From: Paludisphaera borealis
GTDB lineage: Bacteria > Planctomycetota > Planctomycetia > Isosphaerales > Isosphaeraceae
DNA length: 64,000 bases
Reading direction: 5' to 3'
Assembly (NCBI RefSeq): GCF_001956985.1
Contig: NZ_CP019082.1
Span: 1,860,001 to 1,924,000, forward strand
Position 1 is the stretch's first letter. Each line of letters starts with the position of its first letter. The notes under the pieces were generated by a model. That model searched no databases and was not told the DNA's origin. It was given only the letters and a program-made list of their open reading frames with translations. This document shows positions 11,779 through 21,768 of the stretch, in pieces. A program made the translations under genes and the position numbers.

Positions 11779-12945
11779 TCAGTCGATCGTGGGGGCGGTC
11801 GCCGCGGCGGTGTTGGAGCCGGCGAGCAGGCCGCGGATTCGGGTCTCGAAACTCTGGTCCTCGGCCAGGGCGTGGAGGAAATCGTCCTTCGAGAGGACGT
11901 AAAGCTCCATCTCGGTGCGCGCAACGACGGTGGTGGGGACGGTCCGCTTGAAGTACGAGCTGATCATCCCGAAGGCTTCACCGTAGCACTTCTCTTCGTC
12001 GTAGTTGCCGTCGCGGTAGGAATCGGCGACGCCCGTGCCGACGATGTAGAACCGGTCGCCCTCCTCGCCCTCGGTCACGATCGTGTCGCCAGGTTCACAC
12101 GTTTCGACGGTCATGTAATTGGCGATTCGTGAGAGGGTCGCCTCGCTGAGCCCGTTGAGCGACTCGGTCGCCGCGAGCGCCCGGCAGATCCGCACGGCGA
12201 CCCGCGTGAGCGAATTGGTCACGATCCGGCCGCCGACCATGTTGACGATCCGGTCGGCCTTGTCGATCACCCGCTGATCGTGGGTCACCAGCAGCACCGT
12301 CGTCTTGTCCTGACCGTCGGCCAGGTCGCGAAGGAGGTCGAGCACGGTCTGGCTCGACTCGGCGTCGAGCGAGGCCGTCGGCTCGTCGGCCAGGACCATG
12401 AGCGGCCGATTGACGAGTGCCCGGGCGATCGCCACCCGCTGCTTCTGGCCGCCCGACAACTCGGCCGGCAGGTGGTGAATCCGATCGCCGAGACCCAGCT
12501 TGGTGAGCATCTCAATCGCTCGCGCGTTCATCTCCTTGACGGAGCCCGGCATGAGCGCCGTGGCCATGCGGACGTTCTCGATCGCCGTGAGCGAGCTGAA
12601 CAGGTTGTGCTGCTGAAAGATGAACCCGATGTGCTTGCGAAGCTCGACCTGGCCGCTGCCGTCGGCGTGGGTCAGGTCGTGGCCGAGGACGTCGAGACTT
12701 CCGTCCTGCGTCCTCCGCAGTGCGCCGATCAGTGTAAGCAGCGTCGATTTGCCCGACCCCGACGGGCCGGTCATGATGACGACTTCGCCCCGGCTGATCT
12801 CCAGGTTGTTGTCGAACAGGACCTGGGTCCGCGTCTCCCCGCTCCCGTAAGCGTAGTTTACGCCCTGGGCCCGGATCACGACGTCGGCGCCCGAAGGTAG
12901 GCTGACGGCGCGGTGCATGCCGGTCGAACTTAAAGCCGTGCTCAT
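11779..12945 (-). CDS. DevA-type ABC exporter ATPase fused to a cyclic-nucleotide-binding-like domain
   Basis: This 388-aa protein is the last gene of a four-gene exporter operon. Residues about 22-245 form an ABC ATPase of the MacB/LolD/DevA group: Walker A GPSGSGKS near 60, Q-loop FIFQQHN, signature [15 protein letters not shown] near 165, Walker [13 protein letters not shown] and the H-loop LLVTHD. Residues about 270-375 look like a cNMP-binding (CAP-type) beta-barrel: [20 protein letters not shown] and then GEAFGMISS with a following Arg where the phosphate-binding cassette sits. The fusion suggests ligand-gated or regulated transport, but whether a nucleotide binds is unknown. An imperfect inverted repeat separates it from the upstream permease gene. 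Confidence 0.88.
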
Positions 12946-14370: not shown

Positions 14371-15633
14371 TCAGAACAGTTCGGCCGGGTCCGCCCGGCG
14401 GAGTCTGCCGATGGTCAACAAACCCGTCGACACGCCGACGACGACCGCCAGCAAGAGGGTGACGCCGAGGTTCTCCATCGTCATCCTCATGGGAATCCCC
14501 GCCAGCTCTTGCGTCGCCTTGTAGACGATGATCGCGATCAGCACGCCGACGAAGAAGGAGATCACCATGTAAATCAACGACTGAGCGACGACGATCGACG
14601 CCAGCCGCGACGTCGAATAGCCCATCGCCTTCAAGGTCGCGTATTCGGGGAGGTGCTCGCGGACGTCGTTCGACAGCACCTGGTAGACGACGACCGCCGC
14701 CACGACCATCGCCACGAGCACCCCGAAGGCGAACAGCTTGCCGGTCGACGTCTGGTTGACCCAGTGGTCGTCCTCGCGCGCAAGAATGTCCTGCCGGGAG
14801 AGCGCCTGGACGTCGTCGGGGAGGATCGACCGGAGTTCGCGCACGGTCGCGTCGACGGCGCCGGGACGGACCTTGAGGAGCCCGAAGTTGGTCGTCTCGG
14901 TCGAGCCGTAGTCGCAGAGCCGGACGAAATTCAGGTCCGAGCAAAGGACCGTCGCGTCGGCCGCGAAGCCTCGAAGCATGCGGAATCCGCCCACGATCGT
15001 CACGGCCTTCGCGCCAAGCTCCCAATCCTTGTACTGGTCGCGGAGCGGCCAGCCGAAATCGGGGTGGGACAGCTCGTTCATCAAAACCCGGTCGCGGAGC
15101 CGGAGCAATGGCCTGGCCGACTCGATCGACCCCAGGATCGGCGGCCGGAACGGCGGATGGTCGAGACCGAAGCCCATCACGAACAGCTCCCGGCGCTGGA
15201 GCGGGCGGTGGATGCGCGCGCCGGCCAGCCAGCGACTCACCGGGCCCGGCCGTGACTCGGAATCGGCCGCACTAGAGGAGGGGTCGAGCGGATAGGGTGG
15301 ACACCGCCAGAGGCCGAACGACGCGTAAAGCGGAGTCGCCGAGACGACCGAATCGACGTTCCGAGCCTGCCGCAGTCGTTCGAGCGGCAGAAACCCCGGC
15401 GCGTAGAATTGCTCATATCGGGAAGAGAGCAGCACGACGTCGAAATCGAGCTGGTCGAAGTTGTTGGTCGCCGTGATCCGGACCGCCTGGAGGAATCCAA
15501 GCTGGAGCAGCACCATCGTCAACGAGAACGCCGCGCCCGAGATGGCCGCCAGCGATTTGCGGCCCCCCTGGCTCACGTTCCGCAACGCGAGCGGCGGGTG
15601 TCTCAGTCCCAGCGACGACGAAACCACGCTCAA
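14371..15633 (-). CDS. DevC-like FtsX-family ABC exporter permease (first)
   Basis: The 420-aa permease has the FtsX plan: an N-terminal helix (about residues 29-50), a large periplasmic domain, and three C-terminal helices with PEYATLKAMGYSTSRLASIV before them. It is about 30 residues longer than its partner because of an insert near residues 108-145 (Pro/Ser/Arg-rich, PLDPSSSAADSESRPGP). The start is a TTG that overlaps the adaptor stop (TTGA), which implies translational coupling; a GTG two codons later is an alternative. It pairs with the second permease. Confidence 0.86.
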   Translation of the reverse strand: MSVVSSSLGLRHPPLALRNVSQGGRKSLAAISGAAFSLTMVLLQLGFLQAVRITATNNFDQLDFDVVLLSSRYEQFYAPGFLPLERLRQARNVDSVVSATPLYASFGLWRCPPYPLDPSSSAADSESRPGPVSRWLAGARIHRPLQRRELFVMGFGLDHPPFRPPILGSIESARPLLRLRDRVLMNELSHPDFGWPLRDQYKDWELGAKAVTIVGGFRMLRGFAADATVLCSDLNFVRLCDYGSTETTNFGLLKVRPGAVDATVRELRSILPDDVQALSRQDILAREDDHWVNQTSTGKLFAFGVLVAMVVAAVVVYQVLSNDVREHLPEYATLKAMGYSTSRLASIVVAQSLIYMVISFFVGVLIAIIVYKATQELAGIPMRMTMENLGVTLLLAVVVGVSTGLLTIGRLRRADPAELF

Positions 15634-16706
15634 CCGCCTCCTCCGGGCGTGATCGCGACTTCGGCTTCGAGGTTGACGAGCCGCGCGGCGGGTTCCGCCT
15701 CGTCGAGCGCGATCGTCACGTTGACCACGCGAAGGTCTTGCAGCGATCGAGGGTCGATGTTCATCATCTGGTTCCGGCCGACGATCGACCCGATCCGCGT
15801 CACCTTGCCGGCGATCGGCTTGTCGAGGATGGCGACCGTCGCCCGATCGCCGATCCGCAATTGGGTGACGTCGGTCTGGTAGACCTCGGCCACGGCGACC
15901 ATCGCCGACAGGTCGCCCATCCGCAAGAGCGGCCCGCTGCCGACCTCGCCGGCGTGGGCCAGCACATCAAGCACCGTACCCGCGCGCGGGGCGACGACCT
16001 CGGTCTGGTCGAGGCTCGCTTTCGCGAGTTCAATCTGACGGTCGACGAGCTGAAATTCGGGGTTCGACGGGTCGAGCTGCTTGTCTTCCAGCGCGCGTTG
16101 CTTGGCGAGCTCGCTGTACTCGATGTCGAGCGACGTCTTGTCGAGTTCGGCCTTGAGCGATTGGACCTGAAGCTCGATGTACTTCGATTCCCCTTCGAGC
16201 TTGTCACGTCCCGTGAGGGTTGCGCCGAGCATCAAGTTGCCTGGATCGGTGAGCTTCTTCTTTAGGATCTGAGCGACCTGCGTGGCCGTCGTGAGCCGGG
16301 CCGCGTGGAGGGCGTCGAGCTGCGTGCGTTCGAGCGCCAGTTTCTCCTTGCGCGTTGCTCGCTGATGTTCAACCTGCGCCTTCCGCGCTTCCGCCAGCGC
16401 GATTTGCGCTTTGGCTTCCTCACGACCCTCCAGGACCGCCAGGAGCTGGCCCGCCTTGACCGTGTCGCCGGGGCCGACGCGGATCTCAAGGATGCGCGCT
16501 CCGGGACGCGAGCCGACGACGATCAGGCCAGTCGCGGGTTCGACCCGGCCCAGCGCGTGGACCTCGGATCGGGACGTCGGACCGCCCGTCCTGGAAGCGG
16601 ATTGCGCACGGGCTGGAGAGCCCGACGTCGTGAGAATCCAGGCCGAGGCCGTCACGACCGCGAGCGACGTTCCGAGCCAGAGGACCGATGATCGACCGAT
16701 GGGCAT
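15630..16706 (-). CDS. HlyD/DevB-like periplasmic adaptor of the ABC exporter
   Basis: The chosen start (ATG complement at 16704-16706) gives a 358-aa protein with a signal anchor (VLWLGTSLAVVTASAWIL). Residues about 50-110 carry a biotinyl-lipoyl-like half (ALGRVEPATGLIVVGSRPGARI, GDTVKAGQLLAVLEG). An alpha-helical hairpin follows (about 110-235, rich in EARKAQVEHQRATRKEKLALE-like heptads), then the second lipoyl half (VVAPRAGTVLDVLAHAGEVG) and a beta-barrel (QLRIGDRATVAILD). It should bridge the permeases to a TolC-like outer membrane protein, which is not in the window. It is the first gene of the operon. Confidence 0.88.
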   Translation of the reverse strand: MPIGRSSVLWLGTSLAVVTASAWILTTSGSPARAQSASRTGGPTSRSEVHALGRVEPATGLIVVGSRPGARILEIRVGPGDTVKAGQLLAVLEGREEAKAQIALAEARKAQVEHQRATRKEKLALERTQLDALHAARLTTATQVAQILKKKLTDPGNLMLGATLTGRDKLEGESKYIELQVQSLKAELDKTSLDIEYSELAKQRALEDKQLDPSNPEFQLVDRQIELAKASLDQTEVVAPRAGTVLDVLAHAGEVGSGPLLRMGDLSAMVAVAEVYQTDVTQLRIGDRATVAILDKPIAGKVTRIGSIVGRNQMMNIDPRSLQDLRVVNVTIALDEAEPAARLVNLEAEVAITPGGGG

Positions 16707-16952: not shown

Positions 16953-17705
16953 TCAGCCGACCTTGGCGAGAGCGGGCACGTTGCGACGGGCGCCGGCGGC
17001 TTCGACGAACGCTTCGATGAGCTGCATATCGAGGGAGATGTTGCCCTCGTTCTCGGGGTGCCACTGTACGCCGACGACCCACCAGCCCGGCTCTCTGCCT
17101 TCATAAGCTTCGATCAGGCCGTCGGGGGCGAGGGCGCTGATCCGGAAATTGGGGGCCAGCTTGCGGATGCCCATGTGGTGGTAGCTGTTGACGCGGATCT
17201 CGCCCGGTCCGTAGATCTCGGCGAGCCGGGTCTTGGGTTGCATGACGACCGTGTGGCGATGCGCGCCGCCGTGCGGGTCGTAGTGGGGGATGCTCTTGGG
17301 CAGGTCTTCAGGAATGTGGACGAAGAGGCCGCCGCCGGCCACCACGTTCAGCTCCTGCATGCCCAGGCCGATGCCCAGCGTGGGAATCCGTTCCTGCTGG
17401 ACGAGTTTGCAAAGGATGCGGTCGGAGATCTCCCGGCGCTCGCACATAGCGTTGACCGACGGGTGGGGCGAGAGGCCCATCTTGCGAGGATCGAGATCGT
17501 CGCCGCCGGTCAGGACGACGCCGTCGAGCTTCTCGAGGATCGGCACGAGGTCGCTCTCTCGCATCAGCGGGGGGATCATGATGGGCAGGGCGCCCGCGGT
17601 GACGAGGCAGTCGTAGTAGCCGGTCGGCGTGAGGCTGTGGGGAGTGCGGCTCTTGACCGAAGCCCGGAGATCCATGTTGATGCCGATGAGGGGTCGGTGA
17701 TTCAT
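16953..17705 (-). CDS. Class I glutamine amidotransferase-like protein (peptidase C26 type) lacking the nucleophile Cys
   Basis: The 250-aa protein has the fold of gamma-glutamyl-GABA hydrolase/PuuD: PLIGIN at the start, VVLTGGDDLDP near residues 63-73, and VGVQWHPENEG near 212-222, which keeps the His216/Glu218 pair. The nucleophile elbow reads LGIGLGMQELN, so residue 113 is Gly (codon complement of 17367-17369) where active enzymes have Cys (GICRGMQ). It cannot work by the usual thiol mechanism, unless another residue substitutes. It may be a binding or regulatory protein, or a divergent subfamily. The rest of the protein is intact, which argues against recent decay. Confidence 0.82.
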   Translation of the reverse strand: MNHRPLIGINMDLRASVKSRTPHSLTPTGYYDCLVTAGALPIMIPPLMRESDLVPILEKLDGVVLTGGDDLDPRKMGLSPHPSVNAMCERREISDRILCKLVQQERIPTLGIGLGMQELNVVAGGGLFVHIPEDLPKSIPHYDPHGGAHRHTVVMQPKTRLAEIYGPGEIRVNSYHHMGIRKLAPNFRISALAPDGLIEAYEGREPGWWVVGVQWHPENEGNISLDMQLIEAFVEAAGARRNVPALAKVG

Positions 17706-18295
17706 GGTCGGAGTCCCTTCCGTGGTTTAAGGCTTGGCAGAATCCGTCCTGGATGTTCGCGACGCGCCGGTCCAATCAACGAGGCGACGGAAGCCGCACC
17801 GCGAATGACGCTGGATACACGAGATCAACGAATCGTCGGAGCCGATACCCGCTCGACGACTCAGGTCGCAGTGGACTGCGAGGAACTCGATGACCGCGGT
17901 TGGAGGTTGGCGGTCGCGGATTGTAGCCGGTGGCCCGAAAGGGAAGGGATTCGCTTCGTGCGAGCTCTGCGTCTCCCAATCCTTGGGCCGAGCGTTCAAG
18001 GCACGTGAAGTCTATCGATGGAAGGAGCACGACTTCAAGCAAAATCCGCCCGAATCGAGTGGTTTTGCCGATTATTCCGGCCCCGCCGCGAGACGGGAAG
18101 CCGCGTGCTCGGAATCGCCGCGCAACCTCTGTTCAAAAGCGCCCGAGTGCTCGATCGCCGATGCCGGCGACCAAGCGACTCGGGCGGATTTTGGGAAGCC
18201 CGACGCCCGCTCGTGGATTCACGAGCGGGTCGACCTGAAGGGAATCACCGGTCCGAATCCGGCTCGGACCTGGATTTCTTCCGTGACGGGCGTCG
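17706..18295. other. Intergenic region with hairpins, no gene recognised
   Basis: This 590-bp gap lies between the cytochrome gene end and the amidotransferase-like gene start, both on the minus strand. It contains two clear hairpins near the cytochrome end (18206-18229 and 18251-18269) and otherwise only low-quality ORFs. The promoter of the amidotransferase-like gene should lie in its left part. Confidence 0.5.
18206..18269 (-). terminator. Two hairpins downstream of the cytochrome b gene
   Basis: CCCGCTCGTG (18206-18215) pairs perfectly with CACGAGCGGG (18220-18229) around a four-base loop. GTCCGA (18251-18256) pairs with TCGGAC (18264-18269). They lie 27-90 bases past the stop of the minus-strand cytochrome gene. 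There is no T tract, so they are terminator-like or mRNA-stabilising structures. Confidence 0.55.
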
Positions 18296-20104
18296 TCAGG
18301 GTTTGGCCGGCGGCGAAGTCGCCACGGCCGTGGGGGTCTGCTCCGGCGACAGGTAATCATTCGCCAGGTAGCGGACGATCATCTTCAGGTCGTTGTCGGT
18401 CAGCGCATCGGAGCCGAGGGCCGGCATCCGCTGCTTCTCGGCCAGGTAGCCGTAGCGGTCGTCGGCGTGGGGCTTGCGGATCATCCGGCTGGTCCACTGC
18501 GGCGAGCCCCAGGCGAACAGGTTGGGGGAATCGCGAACGCCCCCTTCGGTGTAGCCGTCGATCGCGTGGCACTTGCCGCAATCTTTCTGGAACAGCTCAT
18601 TGCCGGGATGCTCGGCCACGCCCGGCGAGTTCAGCCATTCGTCGACGTTCATGTCGGCGGGAATCTTCGCGAAGGAGGCGACGAAATCGGACACGTCGTC
18701 GAGCTGTTTCGCGTCGAGCTTCGTCGTGCGCTTCCAGTCGACCATGCCGTCGCATTCGGGAGTCTTGCCGTAGTAGGCGTCGGCGTCCGGCTTTTCGAGC
18801 AGGCCGCGAACCCACGCGCGGGTGCCGAAATCCTTCAAATCCGGGGCGCTCACCTCGCCGGCCCCCTGCCCGCCCATCTGGTGACAGCCGAGGCACTTGG
18901 CTTCGAGCACCGCCCTGCCCCGCGTGAGCGGGTCGAGCCGCATCAGGTAACTGGCTCCCTCGGGAGGGACGCCGTACGCCGGATGCGCGGCTAGGAACAA
19001 CGCGCGGTCGCGAGACGCGTCGGCCTTCACCCGAGCCTCATGGAACGACGGGGTCCGGGCGTCTTCGACGAACGACTCCAGGGTCAAATATCCCGCGCCG
19101 CCGGCCAGGCCGAAGATCAGCGAGCAGGCGAAGAAGTGCAGCACCCGCGACGGCAAGACCTTGTCGAGCAGCGGCAGCAGGGCCATCGTCAGCATGATCG
19201 CGCCGGGGATCGCGATCGAGCCGACCCACTCGTACTTGCCGGGGAAGTGCTTGAGCATCTGGAACAGGAACCGGAAGAACCACTCGGGACGCGCCGGGTA
19301 GTCGGAGCTGGATGGATCGGCGGGCGCGTCGAGCGGAGCGCCGCCTTCATAGAGGATCAGAGCGACCATCACGCCCAAAACCACCGTCGTCGCCATCAGG
19401 TTGAGGAACGTCTGATCGGGCCAGTACGTCGCTTTCGGAGCGTTCGCGTCGAAACGCCTCGGCGGTTTCAGCCCGTGCCGCCGGCAGAGCGCGACGTGGG
19501 CGAAGAGGCAGATGAACATCAAGACCGGCAGCACGCCGACGTGAAGCCCATAGAACCGGGTCACCGTCTGGTTGCCGTACTCCGAGCCGCCGACCACGGC
19601 CGTCTTGATGTACGGGCCGAGGATCGGAGCGCCTCCCATTATGTTGGTCACGACTTTCGTGGCCCAGTAGCCCTTCTGGTCCCACGGAAGCTGATAGCCC
19701 GTGTGGCTGAAGGCCAACACGATCGCCATGAGCGCGAGGCCCAGCCACCAGTTGACCTCGCGAGGGGCCCGGTAGGCGGCGGCGAACAGGACCTGGAGAA
19801 AGTGGAACAACAGCAGGACCATCACCGTCTGGGCGCCGAAGTGGTGGAGCCCGCGGATGAACCAACCCATCCACATCACTTTTTCGATGTAGTAGACGCT
19901 TCCCCAGGCGGTCGAGGACGACGCGCTGTACGCGGTCATCATCATCAGGCCGCTGAACGCCTGGATCATGAAGATCGAGGCGAGCACCGATCCGAACACG
20001 TACCGCCACCGCGCGCCGGCGGGAAGGGCTTCTTCTTCGAGCGATCGGAGCGAGGTCCGAAGCCCGGTGCGATCGTCGAGCCAGTCGGCGATGAAGTTAC
20101 TCAA
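18296..20104 (-). CDS. Cytochrome b6/subunit IV fused to a di-heme cytochrome c domain
   Basis: This 602-aa protein joins the subunits of a quinol:cytochrome c oxidoreductase. Residues about 30-215 are cytochrome b6-like. The heme ligands His87/His101 are spaced by 13 residues and His188/His203 by 14, the b6-type spacing. Residues 230-345 match subunit IV, with PEWF at 273-276 in place of the usual PEWY of the quinol-oxidation site. After a last helix near 320-340, two c-type heme sites follow: CLGCH (404-408) and CGKCH (509-513). It overlaps the Rieske gene by 8 bp, so the two form one complex. The acceptor beyond the c domain is not in the window. Confidence 0.92.
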   Translation of the reverse strand: MSNFIADWLDDRTGLRTSLRSLEEEALPAGARWRYVFGSVLASIFMIQAFSGLMMMTAYSASSSTAWGSVYYIEKVMWMGWFIRGLHHFGAQTVMVLLLFHFLQVLFAAAYRAPREVNWWLGLALMAIVLAFSHTGYQLPWDQKGYWATKVVTNIMGGAPILGPYIKTAVVGGSEYGNQTVTRFYGLHVGVLPVLMFICLFAHVALCRRHGLKPPRRFDANAPKATYWPDQTFLNLMATTVVLGVMVALILYEGGAPLDAPADPSSSDYPARPEWFFRFLFQMLKHFPGKYEWVGSIAIPGAIMLTMALLPLLDKVLPSRVLHFFACSLIFGLAGGAGYLTLESFVEDARTPSFHEARVKADASRDRALFLAAHPAYGVPPEGASYLMRLDPLTRGRAVLEAKCLGCHQMGGQGAGEVSAPDLKDFGTRAWVRGLLEKPDADAYYGKTPECDGMVDWKRTTKLDAKQLDDVSDFVASFAKIPADMNVDEWLNSPGVAEHPGNELFQKDCGKCHAIDGYTEGGVRDSPNLFAWGSPQWTSRMIRKPHADDRYGYLAEKQRMPALGSDALTDNDLKMIVRYLANDYLSPEQTPTAVATSPPAKP

Positions 20105-20630
20105 GGGTGATCTTCTCCTCGGCGAGGCACCGGAACCGTTGGAACTTCACGCGGACCTGGGGGTCGGGGTCCTTGGAGAGCTCGACGTCGAGCCGATCCA
20201 TCGGGCGCGGCGGAATCGGGTTCAGCGGCTTGCCTTCCATGTCGAAGGCGCTGGTGTGGCATGGGCAGAGGAAGCCCTTGCCTTCGGCGGCGAGGTTGAT
20301 GGCGCAGCCGAGGTGCGGGCACTCCGCGGTAAAGGCGATCACCGGGGGCTCGACCCCGTCGGGCTGGCGGATCAGCCAGACCGAGCCCGCGGGCTCCTGG
20401 GGGTACTTCACCCAGGCGTCGACCTGGTCGTGGATGATCCCGAAGGATTGCGGAACGCCGACCTTCAACTGGTTGAGGCTGGTCACGTTCTCGAAGCTGT
20501 CGGCCTCGGCCGCATTGCCCGTCTTACGAAGCGGGCTGAGCAGGAAGGCCGCGGCCGGGATGGCGACCACCAGCTTGATCAGGCCGCCGAGGGCCAGAGA
20601 GCCGAGGCGATGAAAATCGCGGCGTGTCAT
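20097..20630 (-). CDS. Rieske [2Fe-2S] protein of the bc/b6-type complex
   Basis: The start (ATG complement at 20628-20630) gives a 177-aa protein with a twin-arginine-like N-terminus (MTRRDFHRLG) and one transmembrane anchor at about residues 13-34. The cluster motifs are both present: CPHLGC at 104-109 and CPCH at 122-125. It passes electrons from quinol to cytochrome c in the complex encoded together with the downstream cytochrome b/c fusion, whose start overlaps it by 8 bp. The much longer upstream reading frame has no signal character and was rejected. Confidence 0.94.
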   Translation of the reverse strand: MTRRDFHRLGSLALGGLIKLVVAIPAAAFLLSPLRKTGNAAEADSFENVTSLNQLKVGVPQSFGIIHDQVDAWVKYPQEPAGSVWLIRQPDGVEPPVIAFTAECPHLGCAINLAAEGKGFLCPCHTSAFDMEGKPLNPIPPRPMDRLDVELSKDPDPQVRVKFQRFRCLAEEKITLE

Positions 20631-20757
20631 TCGGTTTGCCTTTTCGAATGATGCGGGGCGGGCGTGGCAGTGGGTAAATCGCGGGCGGGAGGGATTCGCG
20701 CTGGGGCGACGTCGGGTTGGCTGGATGCGGGCCGTCAGGCGGTCGGAACTTCGGCTC

Positions 20758-21768
20758 CTATGATTGTGCGCCGGCGGTCGCCGGATCAAGAGCGCTCCGG
20801 ACGATCGCGAGCACGCGCTCGATCGACGTCGGCAGATCGTCGGCCAGGGTGAGACCCGCCGCCGCGCGATGGCCGCCGCCGCCAAGCAGGCCGGCGAGCT
20901 TGGCGCAGTCGAGGCCCGTCCGCGACCGCAGCGAGGCTTTCACGCCGCCCCGCGCCTGCTCGATGAACAGCACGCCGACCTCGACCCCGCGCAGGCTCAC
21001 GGTGTAATCGACGAGGTCTTCCGAGTCCGCCGCGATGGCGCCGGTGCGTTCGAGGTCCTCGCGCGAGATCGCCGTGTAAGCGATCCGGCCGTCCATCTCG
21101 GTCTGGAGCGACGCCAGCGTCTCGCCCATCAGCTTGACCCGGCCCAGCGTGTTCCGCTCGAACAGGTCGCGATGGATGCCGTTGATATCAGCGCCCGCCT
21201 CGATCAGCTCGGCCACCGACCGCAGCGTGCTCGGCTTGGTGTTGGGGTGGGCGAACCAGCCGGTGTCCATGGCGATCGCCGTCAGCAGCCCCGTCGAGAC
21301 TTCCTTCGTGAACGTACCGCCCAGGGCCTTCACGGCCTGCATCACGAGCGTGCCCGTGGCCTCGGCCGTCGTGTCCTTGAGGAAGATCGCGCCCAGGTCG
21401 TCCTGGCTCACGTGGTGGTCGACGACCACCTTCGGGCCTTTGAAAGCGCGAATCACGTCGGCCACGTCGCCGAGCTGCTTCCAGGCCGACAGGTCGAGGA
21501 TGATGGCGACCTGGCGATCGGCCAGGTCCGCCGCGTTCACCTGATCGGGATAGATCGTGAAGAGGTCGCCGTCGGGATCGAGGTAGTCGTAGCGGGGAGG
21601 CGTGCGGCTGGCGTTGACGACCTTGACGTCCTTGCCCTTCTGACGGAGCAAGCCGGCCATCCCGACCTCGGATCCGAGGGCGTCGCCGTCGGGCCGGATG
21701 TGGGTGGTGAGCAAGAAGCGGTCGTACTTTTCAACGAGGTCGGCCAGCGGGGTCCAGTCGATCATCAA
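20758..21768 (-). CDS. nrnA: DHH/DHHA1 phosphoesterase, NrnA-type oligoribonuclease / pAp phosphatase
   Basis: The 336-aa cytoplasmic enzyme shows the DHH-family metal motifs: THIRPDGDALGSE near residues 21-33, IILDLSAW near 89, VVDHHVSQDD near 114-123, and MDTGWF. The C-terminal DHHA1 domain has LLGGGGHRAAAG near 298-309. NrnA enzymes degrade nanoRNAs and dephosphorylate 3'-phosphoadenosine 5'-phosphate. All key residues are present. It lies 128 bp upstream of the Rieske gene on the same strand and may be transcribed with it, although the functions are unrelated. The start is the ATG at the first of two Met codons. Confidence 0.9.
   Translation of the reverse strand: MMIDWTPLADLVEKYDRFLLTTHIRPDGDALGSEVGMAGLLRQKGKDVKVVNASRTPPRYDYLDPDGDLFTIYPDQVNAADLADRQVAIILDLSAWKQLGDVADVIRAFKGPKVVVDHHVSQDDLGAIFLKDTTAEATGTLVMQAVKALGGTFTKEVSTGLLTAIAMDTGWFAHPNTKPSTLRSVAELIEAGADINGIHRDLFERNTLGRVKLMGETLASLQTEMDGRIAYTAISREDLERTGAIAADSEDLVDYTVSLRGVEVGVLFIEQARGGVKASLRSRTGLDCAKLAGLLGGGGHRAAAGLTLADDLPTSIERVLAIVRSALDPATAGAQS

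Follow-up and report, generated by a model that had tools for sequence, protein, structure and literature searches.

Features of the locus and of the predicted protein

The window, i.e. the whole stretch of 64,000 nucleotides of Paludisphaera borealis DNA that was analyzed, carries on its minus strand a gene for a Cys-less homolog of the C26/class I amidotransferase (GATase-I) proteins (Table 1). Its open frame was uninterrupted from ATG to TGA, as the preliminary description had stated. The predicted protein matched the Pfam family Peptidase_C26 (PF07722) with E = 1e-57 over the full length of the profile (positions 1-219 of 219) and the Pfam family GATase with E = 4.9e-11. With the PuuD equivalog model NF008471 it scored 87.6 bits, which is below the curated cut-off of 266. 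An AlphaFold2 model calculated from 33 sequences (the window protein and 32 of 40 loci) reached a pLDDT of 88.1 and a pTM of 0.89 and displayed the alpha/beta fold of class I amidotransferases including the nucleophile elbow.

Table 1. Positions of features within the window
Feature	Position	Strand	Remarks
Cys-less C26/GATase-I homolog gene	16953..17705	minus	250 aa; ATG 17705-17703, TGA 16955-16953
Putative Shine-Dalgarno-like AAGGGA	17714..17719	minus	8 nt 5' of ATG; read from the sequence
Elbow motif GIGLGMQ, residues 111-117	17355..17375	minus	turn between model strand 109-112 and helix 114-122
Gly113 codon replacing the catalytic Cys codon	17367..17369	minus	GGC; from alignment with Cys homologs
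GGDDLDP loop, residues 67-73	17487..17507	minus	present in the window protein
NSYHH motif, residues 173-177	17175..17189	minus	Gly members: H176 100%, H177 99%
His216-Pro-Glu218, remainder of the catalytic triad	17052..17060	minus	retained
Asp143	17277..17279	minus	100% of Gly members, 17% of Cys homologs
Arg150	17256..17258	minus	99% of Gly members, 19% of Cys homologs; also in Asp paralog, 19/19
Glu169	17199..17201	minus	100% of Gly members, 22% of Cys homologs; also in Asp paralog, 19/19
Trp208	17082..17084	minus	100% of Gly members, 3% of Cys homologs; also in Asp paralog, 19/19
Asp226	17028..17030	minus	100% of Gly members, 2% of Cys homologs; also in Asp paralog, 19/19
Cytochrome b fused to two cytochrome c domains	18296..20104	minus	upstream neighbor of the Cys-less gene; 590 nt intergenic gap

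The elbow of the window protein reads T-L-G-I-G-L-G-M-Q. Gly113 aligned to the cysteine of Lin1909 and SpuA, so that the catalytic Cys expected at the elbow of C26/PuuD-type proteins is replaced by Gly, and residue 114 is Leu where both of these proteins have Arg. His216 aligned to the residue changed in the SpuA H221N structures. The preliminary description had claimed that Gly takes the place of the nucleophile while the His216/Glu218 pair and the GGDDLDP loop are kept. Both of these elements are present, and the first part of the claim was confirmed; all 64 homologs outside the clade described below have Cys at this site.

The genome of P. borealis (7.65 Mb, 99.9% complete) contains a single copy of the Cys-less gene. 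A search of this genome for a second PuuD-type C26 protein yielded none beyond five other class I amidotransferases. All five carry the elbow cysteine, implying that Gly113 reflects neither a general assembly fault nor a deviation of the genetic code. Two glutamine-synthetase-type genes (frames of 480 and 732 aa) are the only ones found in the genome.

Gene neighborhoods were clustered for 52 loci (the window, L031-L061, and L188-L207), and no class-wide gene partner was seen among them. In 25 of the 52 loci, all of them near relatives of the window, a cytochrome b gene is located no more than about 5 kb upstream (in L054 and L055 on the opposite strand). In the window, the length of the gap between the two genes suggests that the cytochrome b gene is probably a separate transcript; the cytochrome fusion adjoins a gene for a Rieske protein (18296-20885, minus strand). 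A gene for AnmK is located downstream in four loci from two families: L192 and L193 of one and, as a separate matching showed, L196 and L206 of the other. A FabH-like gene is divergently oriented upstream in L058 (piece only), L059, L192, L193, L197, and L207. None of these neighbors is general, and no role in the Puu pathway, in respiration, or in wall recycling is proposed on their account. Elsewhere in the window, an ATPase of the ABC-transporter type (PF00005), whose C-terminus bears a cyclic-nucleotide-binding domain (PF00027), is encoded at 11779-12945 (minus strand), near an FtsX-type permease (14371-15627) and an HlyD protein (15630-16706); this set is read as an exporter with a possibly nucleotide-gated ATPase.

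Occurrence and phylogeny of the Cys-less clade

To the 234 homologous loci taken for a census, merging of 34 identical proteins was applied (30 in an earlier set), leaving 200 distinct homologs. Site 113 was occupied by Gly in 111 (including one partial protein and one with an in-frame stop), Ala in 5, Ser in 1, Asp in 19, and Cys in 64. Cys was found in none of the 136 members read of what we term the Cys-less clade and in all 64 other homologs. Locus L236, which holds two copies, was left out of the census; its Gly copy was counted as L167 and its Cys copy stayed uncounted. L070, with an elbow Cys, was left out of all trees and counts.

The closest named loci to the window gene came from Paludisphaera soli, Aquisphaera insulae, Singulisphaera, and Tautonia sociabilis; Singulisphaera acidiphila belongs to the family Isosphaeraceae of the class Planctomycetia. 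All five other searched genomes of the genus (L071-L075) have Gly at site 113. A homolog with Cys from the same genus, which according to the preliminary description would, together with read evidence of a wrong codon, speak against its reading, was thus looked for and not encountered. The same description had asked whether Gly is fixed in a clade: Cys is absent from all 136 clade members and Gly is present in 111 of them.

In the class Planctomycetia, a match at E <= 1e-25 was obtained in 382 of 397 genomes, and in 367 of these it reached E <= 1e-60, the latter number being a tally of genome matches in which the elbows were read in part. The best-scoring Cys homolog among those read gave 3.2e-46. 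Two matches fell between 1e-60 and 1e-43, a partial copy with an elbow Gly (G669) and one with its elbow not read (G692). Matches weaker than 1e-43 were confined to 13 genomes, all of family f101; 12 of them have a paralog with Asp at site 113 (in G601 a Cys copy is present as well), and G589 has a Cys copy only. Eight of the 15 genomes without a match were searched again at 1e-8, which returned the Asp paralog in one, a Cys homolog in one, and nothing in six. Ordinary Cys homologs do occur inside Planctomycetia: they were read at 13 loci (L118, L175, L176, L182, L185-L187, L233-L235, and L237-L239), in addition to the second copy of L236, and those retained in the tree fell on its Cys side. 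In the other classes of the phylum, 154 genomes had a match, and all 38 that were read (best score 3.2e-46) have Cys, as do the nine loci that are not titled planctomycete (L062-L070).

Trees were calculated after identity thinning to 95 rows (quick) and 84 rows (careful, with the long-branch sequences L066 and L182 left out). In the 84-row tree, from which the elbow and His-Pro-Glu (HPE) columns had been removed, a single branch split 51 Cys-less from 33 Cys rows, with bootstrap/SH-aLRT support of 100/99 and presence in 100% of 200 bootstrap trees. The same split was obtained in the quick tree with an SH-aLRT of 99. Within the Cys-less side, rows mostly clustered by family, and descent thus looks vertical. 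Two loci on contigs titled Candidatus Kuenenia stuttgartiensis (L054 and L055) have a copy near those of Isosphaeraceae, with a cytochrome b gene nearby on the opposite strand. L054, which was kept after thinning, fell into the five-row group of the window gene (100/95), and both contigs are probably misbinned.

The Asp rows formed a single group (100/100), all from family f101 (L173, L174, L177-L181, L183, L227-L232, L240, and L260-L263). An Asp copy occurs alongside a Gly copy in six genomes (G619, G441, G423, G513, G666, and G702), indicating that the Asp group is a paralog. The 95-row tree nested it among the Gly rows with a support of 81, and in the 84-row tree it formed one arm of a basal trifurcation. 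Judged from these sequences, a single loss of Cys likely accounts for the clade with its Asp paralog; the loss in the Asp paralog may also have been separate. For the Gly line, we infer one loss by parsimony. In a genome of family f101 (G392; L236, 3013-4778), a Gly copy lies about 320 bases from an ordinary Cys copy, in divergent orientation. A like arrangement in a genome of the same genus (G406) is known from match coordinates, with the elbows unread.

Ala or Ser at site 113 was read in family f104 only (L220, L223, L247, L249, L250, and L252), and in all six proteins Glu218 is changed to His, giving HPH. Another f104 protein (L141) combines Gly with HPH and was placed among the Ala/Ser rows, from which it follows that Gly and Ala were exchanged at least once.

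Conserved residues and selection

Conservation was compared among 110 Gly members, 64 Cys homologs, and 19 rows of the Asp paralog. Among 34 positions conserved to at least 90% in Cys homologs, the number that reached this level was 25 in Gly members, against 18 in the Asp paralog. Residues retained in Gly members include Asp70, Gln117, His141, His151, Ser174, His176, His177, Asp195, Glu199, Gln214, His216, and Glu218; those below 90%, besides site 113, are Gly38, Gly68, Leu127, Gln129, Gln178, Val213, Trp215, and Phe230. In the GGDDLDP loop, Gly67 is found in 95%, Gly68 in 79%, and Asp70 in 100% across the clade. The HPE motif was present in 103 of 110 Gly members (partial L172 left out) and 62 of 64 Cys homologs. 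It was present in 0 of 19 Asp paralog rows, where the site reads QPA (11), HPA (3), NPT (2), RPA (1), NPA (1), or HPG (1). In all 19 rows of the Asp paralog, Gln117, His177, and Glu218 have been lost as well, and most rows also lack Asp70.

Eleven positions are conserved to at least 97% in Gly members and to less than 35% in Cys homologs: Gly29, Arg90, Arg96, Gly113, His130, Asp143, Arg150, Glu169, Trp208, Leu225, and Asp226. Gly29, Arg150, Glu169, Trp208, Leu225, and Asp226 are also found in 100% of the Asp paralog rows. Because this paralog keeps Arg150, Glu169, Trp208, and Asp226 without the catalytic pair, a conserved function appears to outlive the catalytic residues. The clade-specific residues could also be structural. 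No new Cys, Ser, or Thr able to act as a nucleophile was found among the conserved columns of an alignment from which L002 (with the stop) and L172 (partial) had been left out. Residue 114 was considered as the site of a substitute nucleophile and dismissed, since the residues there are mixed (Leu 40, Val 25, Ala 14, Ser 12, Thr 3, and Tyr 1 in 95 relatives).

Nei-Gojobori dN/dS ratios ranged from 0.008 to 0.40 in all 24 pairs, some dS values being near saturation; comparisons of the window gene with 12 family members gave 0.145-0.397, and 12 closer pairs gave 0.008-0.140. For the Asp paralog, which supplied two of these closer pairs, the ratio was 0.042 in both, with dS near saturation. Gly113 is encoded in 95 relatives by GGC (62), GGG (17), GGT (11), and GGA (5). 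This use of four codons implies that the residue and not the bases is maintained. The clade thus combines the loss of an essential residue throughout with purifying selection, as is typical of pseudoenzymes. The preliminary description had left open whether the loss was tolerated or selected. The absence of Cys from every clade member read, across many families of the class, the low dN/dS ratios in 24 of 24 pairs, and the near-invariant residues of its own speak for selected and against merely tolerated.

Possible roles and comparison with known systems

In the C26 family, the thioester mechanism needs the nucleophilic cysteine, and its loss removes the known catalytic route. Cys-thioester hydrolysis would accordingly be absent from the clade, as judged from the missing nucleophile. 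Wide retention, low dN/dS ratios, and new near-invariant residues together indicate that the protein has a function. We consider it moderately probable that it is a neofunctionalized pseudo-hydrolase that binds a ligand or a partner. The ancestor would have been a PuuD/SpuA-like gamma-glutamyl hydrolase that lost its nucleophile, in the main line through a change to Gly, and with it the thioester route of hydrolysis. Its fold would have been retained together with most of the substrate pocket (GG loop, Asp70, NS-HH, Asp195, Glu199, Gln214, His216, and Glu218), and new residues would have become fixed: Gly29, Arg150, Glu169, Trp208, Leu225, and Asp226, to which Gly members would have added Arg90, Arg96, His130, and Asp143. 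In the most likely working mode, a gamma-glutamyl or glutamine-like small molecule would then stay bound and uncut in the old pocket, and a partner would receive the binding state via the new conserved residues, the protein acting as a sensor, a carrier, or a regulatory subunit. The persistence of the new residues in the Asp paralog, which lacks the catalytic pair, favors such a binding or interface role, and the strong retention of HPE in Gly members suggests that the old pocket still matters, be it for ligand binding or for other chemistry. The step from sensor to partner is without genomic support, given that no partner gene recurred class-wide in the 52 loci. The role proposed in the preliminary description, binding of a glutamine derivative or regulation, would fit the retained pocket.

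An active enzyme with another mechanism appears rather unlikely. It would use His216/Glu218, perhaps with Asp143 or another His, to activate water, to bind a metal, or for acid/base chemistry, Gly113 making room for the substrate. Presence of HPE in 103 of 110 Gly members exceeds what a pure scaffold would need and makes residual or changed chemistry possible. The uniform Gly at site 113 likewise agrees with such an enzyme, since there is no mixture of small residues and Ala/Ser is confined to f104, where Glu218 is His; so does Asp143, which reaches 100% in Gly members only. However, the conserved columns hold no new Cys, Ser, or Thr, and His141, His151, and His176 are just as conserved in Cys enzymes and do not constitute a new site. 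Moreover, the Asp paralog is still under selection without the pair (ratio 0.042 in both pairs, dS near saturation). That the protein is an ordinary gamma-glutamyl hydrolase employing another nucleophilic residue or a weak attack by water is very improbable: retention of pocket residues and HPE is in its favor, but 64 of 64 homologs outside the clade have Cys at site 113, and the two glutamine-synthetase-type genes, both untyped, leave no clear spare PuuA-like enzyme for supplying gamma-glutamyl-polyamine, the latter being a weak argument.

Class I amidotransferase domains commonly pair with a synthetase, and the protein might serve a larger amidotransferase or ligase complex as a non-catalytic subunit, in the manner of the inactive glutaminase-like domain of human CPS1; it would dock on the synthetase and stabilize or regulate this enzyme, and its old pocket would be a relic or a path for ammonia. 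We regard this as improbable. PuuD and SpuA, the nearest families, are stand-alone hydrolases, no adjacent synthetase gene recurred in the 52 loci, and the P. borealis genome offers no other PuuD-type C26 protein as a mate. In favor of a subunit, the clade-specific residues outlive the catalytic pair, and the glutaminase-like domain of human CPS1 has Ser in place of Cys, according to PMC4655335. A sequencing error or a decaying pseudogene has a negligible probability and is refuted by the homologs: 111 distinct Gly sequences, four Gly codons, dN/dS ratios that all stay below 0.4 (24 pairs), and the intact frame in the window stand against a single protein with an in-frame TAG. This codon directly follows GIGLGMQ in a metagenome-assembled genome (L043, 6001-6747) and may be an error, a strain variant, or a genuine loss. 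The identical protein L002 presumably stems from the same assembly, present in two collections.

A further reading is tentative. The clade might be a class-defining Planctomycetia protein, in which loss of Cys turned a gamma-glutamyl hydrolase into a His/Glu-based non-cysteine enzyme or a sensor of gamma-glutamyl metabolites; one family additionally has the even more degenerate Asp paralog, in which just the new conserved residues are left. Annotation of the Cys-less clade, which occurs in most of the searched genomes of the class, by family profiles as gamma-glutamyl hydrolase, peptidase, or amidotransferase is probably wrong, and the first of these labels is unwarranted without an assay. Together with the reduced Asp paralog and the Ala/Ser-HPH family, the pocket-bearing clade offers a natural series on the amidotransferase fold after loss of the nucleophile, and it signals conserved, uncharacterized planctomycete biology. 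Among the matches listed from open-licence full texts, no relevant paper on C26 proteins of Planctomycetes or on Cys-less amidotransferases was present; PMC10945688 deals with the amidotransferase of a phage.

The folds nearest to the model among solved structures were those of PuuD (6vtv, Z 32.2), SpuA (Z 31.9), and Lin1909 (Z 29.8), followed by CTP synthases (about 22-23), and Foldseek concurred. SpuA and PuuD are gamma-glutamyl-polyamine/GABA hydrolases. With SpuA (7d4r/7d50/7d53, from Pseudomonas aeruginosa) and PuuD from Escherichia coli, the window protein shares the fold over its whole length (Z 30.9-32.2, 227-239 residues aligned, 28-34% identity), and the NS-HH and HPE regions of SpuA align with its own. 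In contrast to both, it lacks the nucleophilic Cys, has Gly113 and Leu114, and carries the clade-specific Gly29, Arg150, Glu169, Trp208, Leu225, and Asp226. Of the solved structures, the one that matched best by sequence was Lin1909 (3fij, E = 5.8e-30), an uncharacterized C26 protein with an elbow Cys where the window protein has Gly. Gamma-glutamyl hydrolase (GGH) from zebrafish (4l7q) shows the same fold at a Z of about 21 and about 20% identity. Natural GGH carries the cysteine, whereas its C108A form (4l8f) is an engineered Cys-less C26 protein. The structure is titled as a methotrexate complex and thus provides a precedent for a C26 pocket that can still hold a ligand without Cys; in the window protein the loss is natural.

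Class I amidotransferase domains lacking Cys are already known, an example being human CPS1, and the planctomycete clade fits C26 by fold and profile and fails on the defining cysteine. As described in PMC4655335, the glutaminase-like domain of CPS1 is naturally Cys-less and retained for another purpose. It is part of a large synthetase and has Cys changed to Ser, whereas the window protein is free-standing, PuuD-like, and has Cys changed to Gly.
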